DNA of 64,000 nucleotides from contig FMBT01000309.1 in assembly GCA_900095095.1 (NCBI GenBank), positions 434,001-498,000 of the forward strand, written 5' to 3'. This document shows positions 17,801 through 59,141 of the stretch, one piece after another (the first letter of the stretch is position 1; every line of letters begins with the position of its first letter). The DNA comes from Fragilariopsis cylindrus CCMP1102. Lineage: Eukaryota; Bacillariophyta; Bacillariophyceae; Bacillariales; Bacillariaceae. Made by a program: the position numbers and the translations under genes. The notes under the pieces are model-generated. The model did not search any database, had not been told where the DNA came from, and was given only the letters and a program-made list of their open reading frames with translations.

Positions 17801-20131
17801 ATTCTTGGAACGAGATGTTAGAGGAACTTCGTGTCTACGTTAACGATCAAATTAAACAGGGGAAGAAATGGGACGGAAACGGTAAGATCTCAATTTTGCT
17901 TTGTAGATTGTTTAAAAAAATATAATTTTGTGTATCTCCTCTAACATCGTCGATTCCATTTTTGTTACCACTTGACAGTTCCAACGAACTATCGGATCAA
18001 AGTTTCAAAGGATAAGGCAAAATTATTTGTGAAAGATGACGACGAGGACAAGAATCTTGGTCGTTGGGTAAACCGACAACGAAGTATGTTCCAGGCCGGA
18101 AAGCTTCGTAAAGATCGACAGTTATCCCTGGAAAAAATTGGCCTGAAATGGTCCATGTTGGCTACAACATCTTGGGAATCAATGTTTGAAACTCTTTGCC
18201 AGTATGTCGAAGAAAAGAAGAAAGGTGGGGCCGAATGGGATGGAAATGTCCCAGCTAATTATAGAACAGAAGATATCCCTCCACGTGCACTTGGACGTTG
18301 GATCAATCGCCAACGTTCTGCCTATGGCAAGAACAAATTAAAACCGGAATACGTTGCGAAGTTAAATGAAATAGGTTTAAAATGGTCAATTCATGAACGC
18401 CGACCTACTTATCATCAATATACAAGTGCTAGACCCGAAACTGCTGCGAGCTCCTCGGTAGTTCCAGAGTTGGCGTTGTCTTCATCGACTCCAACGCAAA
18501 ATACCGATGCTGCAAAACCTCAGGCTGCTTTAGCTGCTTCTGGTGTGCAGAAAGATTCTAACGTTAGTGATAAGGAAAATGATGCGATAATAATTGAAAG
18601 TGTGCGTCCTGACCATATTGGAAGTAGCGAGGGAAATATGAAGACTGTAATCTCGAAAGAGAAAACGGAATCGACGATTTTTTGTGATGATCCAAAGGAA
18701 GCTTGTCAGTCTATTCCAACAGGGAGTGAAGTAGGTACATCTACAAAACCATGTGAAACATTAAAGTCCGAGTCAAGTAACGCTGTGAAGATGCCTACTA
18801 CGAGTACACCGTCCTCTAAGGCCCCTATTTCTTCAAATGAACCTGTCAAGTTGGTCGTCAATGAGTCAGTAATTATGGCTAAGAAAGCTACTGACTCTAC
18901 CAATATTGAATTCGCTCTGGCTACACCATCAGCTGGGAATACTACTACGGATACGATTAAAAAGGAGTCAGGGGCAGTTGCTGATTCTACGAAACAGGGG
19001 TCATCTCCACCAGCATCAAAAGTCGAAAGTACAAAGGAGATCATTGCAGAGAAGCCAGTCAACAAAGTAATGGAATCATCTTCATCTATAGCGACAGCAA
19101 CAGCAACAACAACAACAACAATTGGAAATGTAACGACGGATGCGACCAAGATTAAACAGGAGTCAATTGAAACAGCAATAGCATCATCTCCGGCGATACC
19201 TGCAGTTGGAAAAACGACAACGGTGGAGTCAGGCGATAAAAAATTGATCGCATCATCTTCGGTGATACCAGCAGTTGGAAGTGTAACGACGGAGGCAATC
19301 AAGTTTAAACAGGAGCCAATTGAAACAGCAATAGCGTCATCTCCGGCGATAGCAGCAGTTGGAAAAACGACAACGGTGGAGTCAGGCGATAAATCAGTGG
19401 CATCATCTTCAGGAAAACTAGTTGGAAATGTAACAGCAGTCAAGATCAAACAGGAGCCAATAGAAAAAGCAATAGCATCATCTCCGGCGATAGCAGCAGT
19501 TGGAAAAACGACAACGGTGGAGTCAGTTGATATATCAGTGGCATCATCTGCAGGAAAACTAGTTGGAAATGGAACAGCAGTCAAGATCAAACAGGAGCCA
19601 ATAGAAAAAGCAATAGCATCATCTCCGGCGATAGCAGCAGTTAGAAAAACGACAACGGAACAGTCCGTCGATAAATCGACAGTATCATCTTCAGTGATAA
19701 TACCAACAATTGGAAAAACGACAACGGAGCAGTCCGTCGATAAATCGACAGTATCACCTTCAGTGATAATACCAACAATTGGAAAAACGAAAACGAAGCA
19801 GTCCATCGATAAATCGACAGTATCATCTTCAGCGACAATACCAACAATTGGAAAAACAACAACGGAGCCGTCCGTCGATAAATCGTCCGCATTATCTTCA
19901 GCGAAATCAGCAGCATCATCTTCGGAGATAATACCAGTAGTTGAAAAGACGACATTGAAAGAGTCTGTCGTCACTAAATCGACCGTATTATCTCCAGTGA
20001 TATCAGCAGTTGGAAAGTCAACAACGGAGCAGTCCGTCGATAAATCGACCTCATTATCCTCAGCGAAACCAGCAGTTGGAAATACAACGACGGTGGCGAC
20101 AAGCATTAAACAGGAGTCAGTCGACAAGTAA
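14872..20131 (+). CDS. Giant protein with three tandem helicase-associated (HA) domains and a repeat tail
   Basis: Two exons, 14872-17881 (ends AACG-gtaaga) and 17979-20131 (after TTGACAG), giving about 1720 residues without any frame break. Residues 1-890 are low-complexity Ser/Thr/Asn/Ala with nuclear-signal-like KKKSR and KKRSLAAE clusters. Three HA domains (Pfam Helicase-associated type) follow, each with the pattern W-(E/N)-M...WDGNVP...LGRW(V/I)N(N/R)QR...GLKWS, at 17545-17790, 17800-18160 and 18170-18400. The intron splits the second domain at WDGN-VPTNYR. HA domains are widely expanded in diatoms and are presumed to bind nucleic acid. The C-terminal 330 residues are a coding minisatellite (separate entry). 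No helicase core is present. Likely a nuclear DNA- or chromatin-binding protein by inference. The start ATG 14872 follows an upstream in-frame non-ATG stretch. Confidence 0.85.
19130..20120 (+). repeat. Coding minisatellite with repeated KxKQE/P motifs
   Basis: Within the HA-domain gene. Two unit types: a long unit of about 42-46 codons (IASSPAIAAVGKTTTVESGD...IKQEPIE, about four copies) and a short one of about 23-24 codons (IGKTTTEQSVDKSTVSSSVI, about four or five copies). The motif (I/F)-K-Q-E occurs five times, near 19151, 19301, 19443, 19587 and 20103, with an IKKE at about 18958. All fit the sumoylation consensus psi-K-x-E. Copies near 19440-19640 are almost identical in DNA, which suggests recent duplication. 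Confidence 0.85.
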
Positions 20132-20517
20132 ATCGATGGAAGCTTAAAATAATATAGATGTGAATGGAAGAGTACGTGCGCCATTCATTTGAGCTAATAA
20201 TAATGATATTGGATTGTTTTATGATGATTCTTTTTATGTGAACGAAAATTTTGTATAGTATGAACCTAGCTTCTATAGATTACTCTACTATTATTATTAT
20301 TGCTTGTTTTTTTTTCAATATTTAAAAAGTGATTTGAATATGCATAGATTGAAATGCCGCCGGTCGTGTAGAAAAGGAGCTACTGTAGTCGTCATAAGGC
20401 TAATGAAATGACTAGTGATGTATTATAAATGTAGTTGCTTTATATGACGTGATGTGATGTGATGTGATCTCTAGCTAGAATGAATGAATGAAAATAGTAT
20501 AGAATTTATATCAAAAT
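20132..20517. other. Tail-to-tail spacer
   Basis: 386 bp between the HA-domain gene and the rubredoxin gene. It contains a short TGATG run (about 20450-20468) and is otherwise AT-rich. Confidence 0.4.
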
Positions 20518-54741: not shown

Positions 54742-54858
54742 ATTAGTTCCATTTGATCAAATTAAAAAAATGGATTCTACTAAGTTAATTTTACTTGATT
54801 AGTGTAAAGATATAAATTCTATAAGTTGATACTTTAATCTGTGCATGAGTATTCTTTT

Positions 54859-56646
54859 TCACCAGTCGATTTCAGACTGTTCTATCAATACGGATACAGT
54901 TTCCCGTTCTCGACGCATACACGCCTGTTTTCTTTCTTGTATTTTCGCCAATAGAGCACTCATTGGTGTCTTCTTTTGCTTTGGGGGTAGTAACGTTGAT
55001 CTATCAAGTTGCTTTAGCTTGACACCCGACTGGATTTCTGACAGAAAAATATTCGTTTCTAGGTCTGCAGGTTGTAACGATGATCTATCAACTTGTTTTA
55101 GCTTGACACCCGACTGGATTTCTGACAAAAAATCATTCGTTTCTAAATCTTCAAGTTGTAACGATGATCTATCAACTTGTTTTAGCTTGACACTCGACTG
55201 GATTTGTGTCAAAAGATCATTCGTTTCTAGATTTGTAGGTTGTAACGATGAACTTTGAGTCTGTTTTAAGTTGATACCAGCTCGAATATCTCCGAAGAGA
55301 TCAGATGATGAACGAGTAGTTTTCGTAGCTGTCGATGGATTTTCTACTTCATTTAGCTCCACACCCGCTACTCGTATACTGGCAAAAACGTTACTGATCG
55401 AATTCGATTCGGTTGCAATTCCAGATATGTTCGCATCTTCATGAGTATTTCCTGATTGTATATCCTGATTAAAAAATTGTTTTGTAGAGAAAACAGGGTT
55501 GGCGATTGATGAAGTAGAGACTTTATCTGACTGATGTTTGCCAATTCGACTAGGATCAACTGCAGGTGATACTATTCCAGTGGCTATCATACCATGTTGA
55601 GGCTGGGTTGTGTTATTTGCATCGGATACAGTAGAACGGTAATTCGTTTTCTTGACTTTTGCGTTATTATGTTTTTCTTCAATATGCATATTGTTCCCGT
55701 GGGTATTATGTTGACCTCTTGGAGAAGTTGCAAATTGAATTGCAGACGTTTGTCGCGATGATGCGTGGACCATACCTTCATTTCTTATCCGACCACCATC
55801 ACCTGATCGCTTAATGTTGAACGGTATCTCGTTCGCACTAGATAATTGGATTCTTGAAGGATTCTTAATTCTTGCCGCCTCAGCAACATGCATAACATTG
55901 TAGGTATTTGATGACAGTGAAGATGATGCCTCGTCTCTCTCCCCATATAATGACTCAGTAGGTTTTGATGCAATTGTCGTTGTTCGGGGCGAAAACAAGG
56001 GCGGTGGTACTGGTGGTACTTGTACTTGTATAGCTCTTACCTTTCGAACTACGCGCCTGACCTTTCGTCCATTCCTCATCGTGACCGTCGATCGCTGACT
56101 ACTTGTGATTGATCCTCCATCTCCGACAAACTTTGACTGTGAAGGACTCTTTTCGTGATCCTCCATTATCGCCATTTTGTCTATGGTATGCAAGCGATCT
56201 GTAAAAGATTCTATACCCTCCTTTTTCTTCGTCATGAAAATTTCAGTAATAGGTGGTGATAGTTCGCTGTTATGAGAGAAAACAGCAGAGAGTTGAAGCT
56301 TAGGTCGTCGTTCTCGTTCTCGTTCTCTATCATCTTTTCCGTTACGTAAAGTTTCTTTCGGAACGAAATTAATCTCAATTGGTTGATTTTTTATGGATTG
56401 ATCGTGTCTTAAAAGTGATGATCTGTTCATATGAGTATCGGTAGACGCAGTAGCTGACGATTGAGCCTTTACTTGCATCTCTACGAGTCGCTTGTTGAGA
56501 CGCTTCATTTCTGCCTGAAGATCGTCTACTTGTTCCTTCAATACTCCACCTTGCGAACTATTGTCATCACGATAATCAACGTTTTTCGTCTTACTGTCGT
56601 TATTACTCTTTCTCCTGCGAAAGAGCGCCATGGTCGTATTTTTCAT
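54859..56646 (-). CDS. Tandem-WH2 actin-binding protein candidate
   Basis: Single intact exon, 595 residues, ATG 56646. Seen: basic N-terminus (MALFRRRKSN after MKNTT), a coiled coil at residues 34-60 (VLKEQVDDLQAEMKRLNKRL), long disordered Ser/Asn-rich stretch, a basic block RKVRRVVRKVR at 194-204 and a proline-rich motif VPPVPPPLFSP at 210-220. Near the C-terminus, four 28-residue units start at about 449, 477, 505 and 533, each fitting the WH2 pattern LL-x2-I-x2-G-x2-LK-x-V (DFLSEIQSGVKLKQVD). There is a divergent one at about 419 (NVFASIRVAGVELNEVE) and a partial one at 563 (ALLAKIQERK). WH2 repeats bind actin monomers. With a polyproline stretch for profilin, this suggests an actin nucleator or elongator. 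Actual activity is inferred. Convergent with DDX27. Confidence 0.75.
   Translation of the reverse strand: MKNTTMALFRRRKSNNDSKTKNVDYRDDNSSQGGVLKEQVDDLQAEMKRLNKRLVEMQVKAQSSATASTDTHMNRSSLLRHDQSIKNQPIEINFVPKETLRNGKDDRERERERRPKLQLSAVFSHNSELSPPITEIFMTKKKEGIESFTDRLHTIDKMAIMEDHEKSPSQSKFVGDGGSITSSQRSTVTMRNGRKVRRVVRKVRAIQVQVPPVPPPLFSPRTTTIASKPTESLYGERDEASSSLSSNTYNVMHVAEAARIKNPSRIQLSSANEIPFNIKRSGDGGRIRNEGMVHASSRQTSAIQFATSPRGQHNTHGNNMHIEEKHNNAKVKKTNYRSTVSDANNTTQPQHGMIATGIVSPAVDPSRIGKHQSDKVSTSSIANPVFSTKQFFNQDIQSGNTHEDANISGIATESNSISNVFASIRVAGVELNEVENPSTATKTTRSSSDLFGDIRAGINLKQTQSSSLQPTNLETNDLLTQIQSSVKLKQVDRSSLQLEDLETNDFLSEIQSGVKLKQVDRSSLQPADLETNIFLSEIQSGVKLKQLDRSTLLPPKQKKTPMSALLAKIQERKQACMRRERETVSVLIEQSEIDW
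54980..55302 (-). repeat. 84-bp coding repeat (WH2 units)
   Basis: Four tandem units of 28 codons. Units 2 to 4 share most DNA positions (TTGACACCCGACTGGATTTC on the plus strand recurs), indicating recent duplication within the gene. Confidence 0.88.
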
Positions 56647-57577: not shown

Positions 57578-58494
57578 TTAAAACGCCAATCCTTCAAATA
57601 TCGTACTAACAGTTTCATTCCAATTTCTTTCCTGTGAAGTCAAACTCCCAACCGGTATACCACCCCCCGCAGCCTGTCTCTTGCGGTAAAATTTTAGATC
57701 TAATGTATTTCCTGTATCTCGTCGATCTTTGAAGCCTCCCTCTGGTTCTCTTACCCGTGGCGAAACAAACACAGTCGCAGCATTAGCCTGTCGGCCCTCT
57801 CGCTGCCGTTTGAGTTCATTCCGGTAGCCTTGCATCTGTGCTGCTTTCAGCTCCGCAGAAACCTCGTCCCGCTCACCTAATAGAACTTCAGCCGATTCTT
57901 GTTTGAACTTTCGTTTCGTTAATGCGATAGCCTTTTCTTCTTCTCGTAGTTCCCGTTTACGTCTTTCAGCCTCGCGCTGTTCACTAGCAATTTGATCCTG
58001 AATGGCGCGTTCCGCATCTGCTCTTTGCGATTGTCTTATGACTATCTCTGTTCGATGATTTTCCTCGTAAGCCTTGATTTTCCCCTTGCACTCCTCAGCA
58101 TTTGGTTCCTCGTTAACGATGGAATATATCATATCTTCGACTTCTTCGAGGTAGTTGTTGTATTCAAGCAGGGAGGGGAAATCTTTCTGCGTTTTGTTAA
58201 AAACTTCATTACACGGCGTCTCCAACTTGTATCCTTCTCGCATAAGACATCATCAAGTGTTCGAGTAGATAGGGTCACCTTTTTCACTGGCGTTTCACAA
58301 ATTGGACAGGGGAATTCACGTCGTCTCGAGAGCTCACGATCAATACAAGATGAACAGAACTGATGACCACAGCCAACAGTTGAGTTGTTTTGCAGTTGAG
58401 ACTGAGAAGTCAAATTTGACGAATCTCCCTCGGCAATGCCACAAATGGCACAACTAAACAAATCCTCCTGTTCTTGGTGGTCGTCCATATTCAT
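57578..58494 (-). CDS. MNAT1: MAT1, CDK-activating kinase assembly factor (TFIIH)
   Basis: Holds CDK7 and cyclin H together within TFIIH. ATG 58494, about 305 residues with one break near 58209 (A-run loss). RING finger at the N-terminus: CAIC...CGHQFCSSC...CPIC, all zinc ligands present. Then the MAT1 block NKTQKDFPSLLEYNNYLEEV (family [20 protein letters not shown]) and a long coiled coil (RADAERAIQDQIASEQREAE). The Arg-rich C-terminus lacks clear known motifs. Divergent from the DAG lipase gene. Confidence 0.93.
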
Positions 58495-59141
58495 CTTTCT
58501 ATTGTGACGTTTTTTAAATATATCCGAAACGCTCAATTTACAATTTACGCTTATTAGCTTTTTGTAGGTTATACGAACTATTAACACTGCATGCATGCAT
58601 TGTTTGTCTACTTTCTACTTTTAACTTCGTACTTTTAAGTTACTTATTTTCAATTTGTCAGTCCAGATTTTCAAACAGGACCATCTTCCGCTTGGCGAAT
58701 TAAAATATTAAACATTACGAATATTCCCCTGATACCCTTACTCGCGCGCGGCATTGGTCATCAAAAAAAATCATATAAGCAATCATTTAGGTTAATGAAA
58801 AACCATTAAGCTTAATGAAAAATCATTAAGCAAAAATATTTTTATGCGCGAAAATGGATCTTAGATCTTACGGTACAACTTTCATAGGGCATGTTTTCGT
58901 CTATTTAGAGAAAAGAAATTAAAAAAGAAATTAACAATCTGCCTCTACAACTTTGAAAAGAAATCAAGCCACCGTCACCTACCCTACAGCATTAACGCCC
59001 GAACAAACAATAGAAAAGATTTGAAGTTGTAATGGTTGGATCCAAAGTTTGCAAAGAGCTTCACAAGATTAGATAGATGCAACACATCTAATACGTTTTG
59101 ATTCCAACGCCGTTCAGTATTTTCCTATCCTATTACACAAG
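58495..59141. promoter_or_regulatory. Head-to-head promoter region of MAT1 and DAG lipase
   Basis: 647 bp between the start codons. It contains two adjacent 20-bp copies of an AATGAAAA(A/T)CATTAAGC-like unit (about 58791-58831), the second forming a hairpin (separate entry). Confidence 0.4.
58810..58831. repeat. Inverted repeat GCTTAATGA/TCATTAAGC
   Basis: 9-bp perfect arms (58810-58818 and 58823-58831) around AAAA, preceded by the related copy GTTAATGAAAAACCATTAAG. Possible regulator site. Confidence 0.6.

Follow-up and report, generated by a model that had tools for sequence, protein, structure and literature searches.

Does the minus-strand reading frame at positions 54859–56646 encode an actin nucleator, and if so, of which kind? 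Positions are those of the window, the whole 64,000-nucleotide stretch of DNA that was analysed. An earlier note on this DNA, made from the letters alone, described four C-terminal 28-residue repeats matching the WH2 actin-monomer-binding pattern, with a divergent fifth and a partial sixth unit, and proposed a candidate diatom actin nucleator.

The frame is open throughout (595 aa). With eight other ORFs of the window as reference, codon use is best in this frame among the six (+0.148 bits per codon); an antisense frame comes second (+0.096 bits per codon), and one 60-codon block (residues 181–240) scores negative in the ORF's own frame. The true start may instead be the second ATG, at residue 6 (ACCATGGCG), a choice that follows start-context preference. 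Upstream, between 56700 and 57570 on the minus strand, no open frame is longer than 69 codons except the ORF's own extension, so that a missed exon encoding an upstream domain is unlikely, although short exons could still lie there. The possibility that the frame is wrong near the 3' end was set aside, since the other two frames hit stops and, by eye, offer no better tail. Judged from its sequence, this is a real WH2-array gene, with a product that likely binds actin monomers (G-actin). The features discussed below are collected in Table 1.

Table 1. Features of the WH2-array reading frame and their positions in the window
Feature	Residues	Positions	Strand	Remarks
Whole ORF		54859–56646	minus	595 aa plus stop
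Predicted helix with heptads, candidate oligomerising coiled coil	30–65	56452–56559	minus	
Basic stretch	190–206	56029–56079	minus	net +8
VPPVPPPLFSP proline motif	210–220	55987–56019	minus	
W0, divergent WH2-like unit	419–435	55342–55392	minus	equalled by 1 of 2000 shuffles against an N-WASP WH2; no Pfam match alone
W1, WH2 unit	443–470	55237–55320	minus	best single Pfam match
W2, WH2 unit	471–498	55153–55236	minus	
W3, WH2 unit	499–526	55069–55152	minus	
W4, WH2 unit	527–554	54985–55068	minus	
84-bp tandem DNA repeat	 	54986–55251	.	Tandem Repeats Finder; 3.2 copies, 89% matches
C-terminal helix	562–589	54880–54963	minus	first part (ALLAKIQERKQA) resembles VCA C helix
EIDW	592–595	54862–54873	minus	last residue is the protein's only Trp

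The WH2 array and its match to N-WASP

The earlier note had proposed a search with the Pfam WH2 profile (PF02205) as a check. Against the full protein this profile scores 30.5 bits over four stretches (cut-off 23.1, E 2.6e-7), which, together with the gapless match to N-WASP described below, bears out the WH2 identity of the four C-terminal repeats, W1–W4. Scanned singly, these units give weak WH2 matches that all lie under the cut-off (E 0.0013, 0.05, 0.0053 and 0.08 for W1 to W4), and neither W0 nor the C-terminal tail on its own has a WH2 match in the Pfam scan. None of four shuffled versions of the array matches the profile. A WH2-like regular expression, composed after the repeats had been seen, matches the protein five times (5000 shuffles: mean 0.0008, maximum 1), and the six frames of the whole window hold five such matches in total. 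The motifs start at residues 419 (W0), 449, 477, 505 and 533, with observed spacings of 30, 28, 28 and 28 residues. Aligned with an N-WASP WH2, each of W1–W4 scores better than all 2000 of its own shuffles. W0, lying upstream, is equalled by one shuffle in 2000, and it supplies the divergent fifth unit that had been described.

When the C-terminal 191 residues were searched against the PDB, all three chains listed at E up to 10 were N-WASP: 3m3n (E 6.4e-5), 2vcp (E 0.064) and 6uhc (E 0.73). The 3m3n alignment covers 81 residues and three units with no gaps, so that the spacing is shared as well as the motif; we take 3m3n to be an actin complex, and its chain, which carries three WH2, is presumably engineered. 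In the 2vcp alignment, the two motifs of N-WASP stand 28 residues apart, as W1–W4 do. A profile built from the five units found only 3m3n, weakly (E 0.2), and the single-sequence search found more.

The individual units are less orthodox. The LKKV segment reads LKQT, LKQV, LKQV and LKQL in W1–W4 and LNEV in W0, and none of the five contains in full the family pattern given for this part in a passage of PMC3298513, L-[KR]-[KR]-[VTA]. Five of the six positions of the published helix pattern are present in W0, W2, W3, W4 and the tail, and nowhere else in the protein; W1 reaches four of six, a level also found at 13 other positions of the protein. The amphipathic motif helices on which the earlier note had counted do not stand out, their hydrophobic moments being ordinary (49th–83rd percentile among all 11-mers of the protein). 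The repeat could resemble WH2 by chance, or as the remnant of a decaying motif, and bind no actin, as the reduction of the basic pair to LKQ, these ordinary moments and the sub-threshold scores of single units would suggest. We consider this very improbable: the full protein lies above the Pfam WH2 cut-off, and the N-WASP match runs gapless across three units, which shuffles fail to reproduce.

In the DNA, W2–W4 are 81–89% identical among themselves, and W1 is 52–62% identical to them. The earlier description of the repeats as nearly identical, and of the array as evolving by duplication, thus suits W2–W4, where duplication appears recent, but does not extend to W1. These identities and the 84-bp tandem repeat point to a probable stepwise expansion of the array, in which W2–W4 are the recent part.

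Predicted structure and the C-terminal tail

Structure models were built without an alignment and are of low confidence outside two helices. The full-length model (mean pLDDT 43, pTM 0.22) contains the first of these near the N terminus, where residues 41–60 reach block pLDDT values of 91 and 88 and the heptads of residues 34–61 carry L, I, V, M or F at seven of eight a/d positions (best of seven registers). The coiled coil that had been placed upstream of the array is thus recovered as a predicted helix with heptads, and the VPPVPPPLFSP motif is likewise present. Among the five WH2 units, the full-length model has helices in W3 and W4 only; its C-terminal helix has block means of 65, 71 and 51. 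A model of the 191 C-terminal residues (mean pLDDT 51, pTM 0.21) predicts helices at 417–422, 448–459, 474–485, 502–511, 526–539 and 562–590, and so at every WH2 unit, but with 10-residue block means of only 34–49 there; the last helix alone is confident, with block means up to 92. Overall, the protein is predicted to be mostly disordered with a short coiled coil. A further, low-confidence helix is predicted at residues 140–158 (56173–56229, minus strand) in the otherwise disordered middle.

Turning to the tail, a WH2-like helix begins at residue 564 and is not followed by an LKKV part. Against an N-WASP WH2, 38% of shuffles score as well as the tail, and against the protein's own units 23–79% do, which is chance level. 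Against the N-WASP C helix the score is 25 (shuffled mean 16.8) and 2.8% of 5000 shuffles do as well, a figure that comes from a set of seven comparisons, left uncorrected, and was obtained after looking. On this weak evidence, what had been described as a sixth partial unit may be nearer to a VCA connector (C) helix than to WH2. Used alone as a query, the tail draws no PDB match up to E 10, and in Pfam it has no related family; a match to FSAF1 (E 0.12) was dropped. The protein ends in ...SEIDW, and the statement that no VCA domain can be seen becomes less clear with this ending and the C-helix-like last segment, both weak signals.

These features raise the prospect of a highly diverged WASP-family-like protein, either activating a divergent diatom Arp2/3 complex that has been missed or persisting as a relic that now works alone. 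In VCA regions the C helix is followed by a disordered A segment, whereas the helix predicted here runs unbroken to residue 589–590. Only four of the last 15 residues are acidic (net −3), leaving the tail hardly acidic, and the hydrophobic positions of the C pattern, aligned on N-WASP by eye, are present at two of three. On the other side, the 2vcp and 6uhc alignments extend from the WH2 units into the N-WASP C helix, and the order of basic stretch, proline motif, WH2, C-like helix and Trp is that of the WASP family. The position of the only Trp as the final residue recalls many VCA acidic tails; Kollmar and colleagues describe a Trp that is last or close to the terminus in most WASP-family acidic domains (passage in PMC3298513). 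There is also a precedent in Plasmodium, for which text in PMC13340494 describes a divergent, atypical Arp2/3 complex earlier thought absent. The protein does carry WH2 units close to its C terminus, as the V region of the WASP family does, but N-terminal domains of the WH1, WASH or IMD type are not listed by Pfam at E up to 10. We regard such an activator or relic as quite unlikely. A further reading starts from the reported loss of Arp2/3, WASP proteins and often profilin in diatoms: a WASP-like protein for actin assembly would have been retained or built anew there, carrying more WH2 units, a C-like helix and a tail pared down to little more than its final Trp, and would act alone or on an Arp2/3 complex too diverged to be recognised. 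This is speculative and also unlikely.

Candidate roles in actin assembly

Among the closest known systems is N-WASP (3m3n, 2vcp, 6uhc), through the spacing of 28 and the gapless alignment to 3m3n. The differences are that N-WASP has two WH2 where this protein has four to five, that the C-like helix lies three residues closer to the last WH2 than in N-WASP, and that no WH1 or GBD appears in the Pfam listing and the tail is scarcely acidic. Like Spire, the protein clusters about four WH2 motifs, joined by short linkers. Pfam includes KIND and FYVE_2 models, and unlike Spire the protein has neither domain in the Pfam scan; the scan lists WH2 alone above cut-off, in agreement with the earlier remark that KIND is absent. 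Cordon-bleu (Cobl) is a WH2-based, Arp2/3-independent nucleator, and its N-terminal domain also has a Pfam model. In contrast to Cobl, that domain is not listed for the protein, and the even 28-residue spacing differs from the one long linker of Cobl. Spire has not been identified in SAR according to text in PMC11231147. Stramenopile relatives offer a further parallel in their extra V units: a passage of PMC3298513 describes two WH2 in Ectocarpus WAVE and a tandem VCA in stramenopile WASH. Were the host a diatom, they and the present protein would share a broad lineage; unlike them, this protein has more WH2 units and no recognised N-terminal family domain. Judged by the Pfam listing, the protein fails as a Spire, as a Cobl and, for the WH1, WASH and IMD types, on the WASP-family N-terminal domain.

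In this gene a known motif is arranged in a new way. The earlier note knew of no diatom protein described with such a layout, and the open-access literature likewise has none among the matches listed. In viral contigs no relatives were found, and in prokaryote genome contigs eight stretches fit a peptide pattern, none of them a relative by tblastn. NCBIfam returned no families, and WH2 is the only Pfam family above cut-off; matches of the protein to YAF2_RYBP, DUF4055 and DUF7036 fell under their Pfam cut-offs, and weak side matches of single units to DNAPolymera_Pol and YAF2_RYBP were dropped.

We propose, with about even confidence, a coiled-coil, tandem-WH2 G-actin binder that would nucleate or feed filaments without Arp2/3. 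The array of four good units and one divergent unit would bind a series of actin monomers arranged as a longitudinal strand, with the N-WASP spacing of 28 residues lining them up. The N-terminal coiled coil may bring two or more such arrays together, and the aligned, clustered monomers could then seed new actin filaments or feed their growth independently of the Arp2/3 complex, while the proline motif and basic stretch may recruit partners or membrane. The frame, the array and its spacing are observed and the helices predicted, whereas actin binding, dimerisation, nucleation, independence of Arp2/3 and a diatom host are inferred. Text in PMC11231147 states that nucleation requires at least two WH2 domains, and severing or sequestering one. 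Kollmar and colleagues report Arp2/3 and the WASP family absent from Bacillariophyta (passage in PMC3298513), and a paper on Craspedostauros, citing Aumeier 2015, says that many diatoms are without profilins and Arp2/3 (passage in PMC11420354). Given these reported losses, such cells could make good use of a factor that works independently.

Counting against nucleation, W3 and W4 are the only helical units in the low-confidence full-length model, and no unit carries the complete L-[KR]-[KR]-[VTA] pattern. WH2 domains may, moreover, sever or sequester actin as well as nucleate it (same passages of PMC11231147). The protein could accordingly handle monomers, sequestering them, severing filaments, or delivering G-actin to growing ends together with a formin or in place of profilin. 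This reading would agree with the description of clustered WASP-family proteins as polymerases in PMC5753033, and with the statement in PMC11420354 that profilins are missing in many diatoms. Against this, the regular 28-residue spacing and the coiled coil would exceed what sequestering needs, and a single short proline motif would make a poor feeder of profilin or actin. Monomer handling of this kind is possible, if somewhat doubtful, whereas a nucleator role is plausible and can be fairly put at about an even chance.

Raphid diatoms have actin bundles that follow the raphe, and their gliding has been suggested to be driven by an actomyosin system (passage in PMC11420354). Filament initiation in diatoms appears little studied, as far as the open-access literature matches listed show. 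If the host is a diatom, a tandem-WH2 protein in a cell without Arp2/3, WASP family and profilin would be a concrete candidate for a filament starter. The Trp-ended tail would then also raise the question of whether a cryptic Arp2/3 pathway remains in diatoms.

Surroundings of the gene

A DEAD-box helicase gene faces the WH2 ORF tail to tail, and the two ORFs are separated by 117 bases. A 137-aa ORF runs antisense to the array (54845–55258, plus strand); at +0.038 bits per codon its codon score is near zero, and it is probably a mirror of the repeats. Scans of the window for tRNA genes and Rfam families gave no matches, and a six-frame search for plastid-targeting motifs, intended as a marker of lineage, gave two, neither in a leader that convinces by eye.

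The next gene on the same strand is MAT1 (57578–58596, minus strand), of which the RING part is encoded in an ORF at 58129–58596 and the MAT1 part in an ORF at 57578–58243. By eye, the two overlapping frames join close to five consecutive T (minus strand; 58199–58203), and the split may come from a sequencing error in these T, from a short intron or from a true frameshift. Additionally, the window contains two ORFs with helicase-associated (HA) domains; this domain is common in diatoms, which gives no more than a hint at a diatom host. In the region 17900–20200, one of these ORFs (17972–20131) has a 492-aa ORF open on the opposite strand and carries long degenerate repeats: a 50-nt family is present in 14 copies, and further families have 69- and 141-base spacing.
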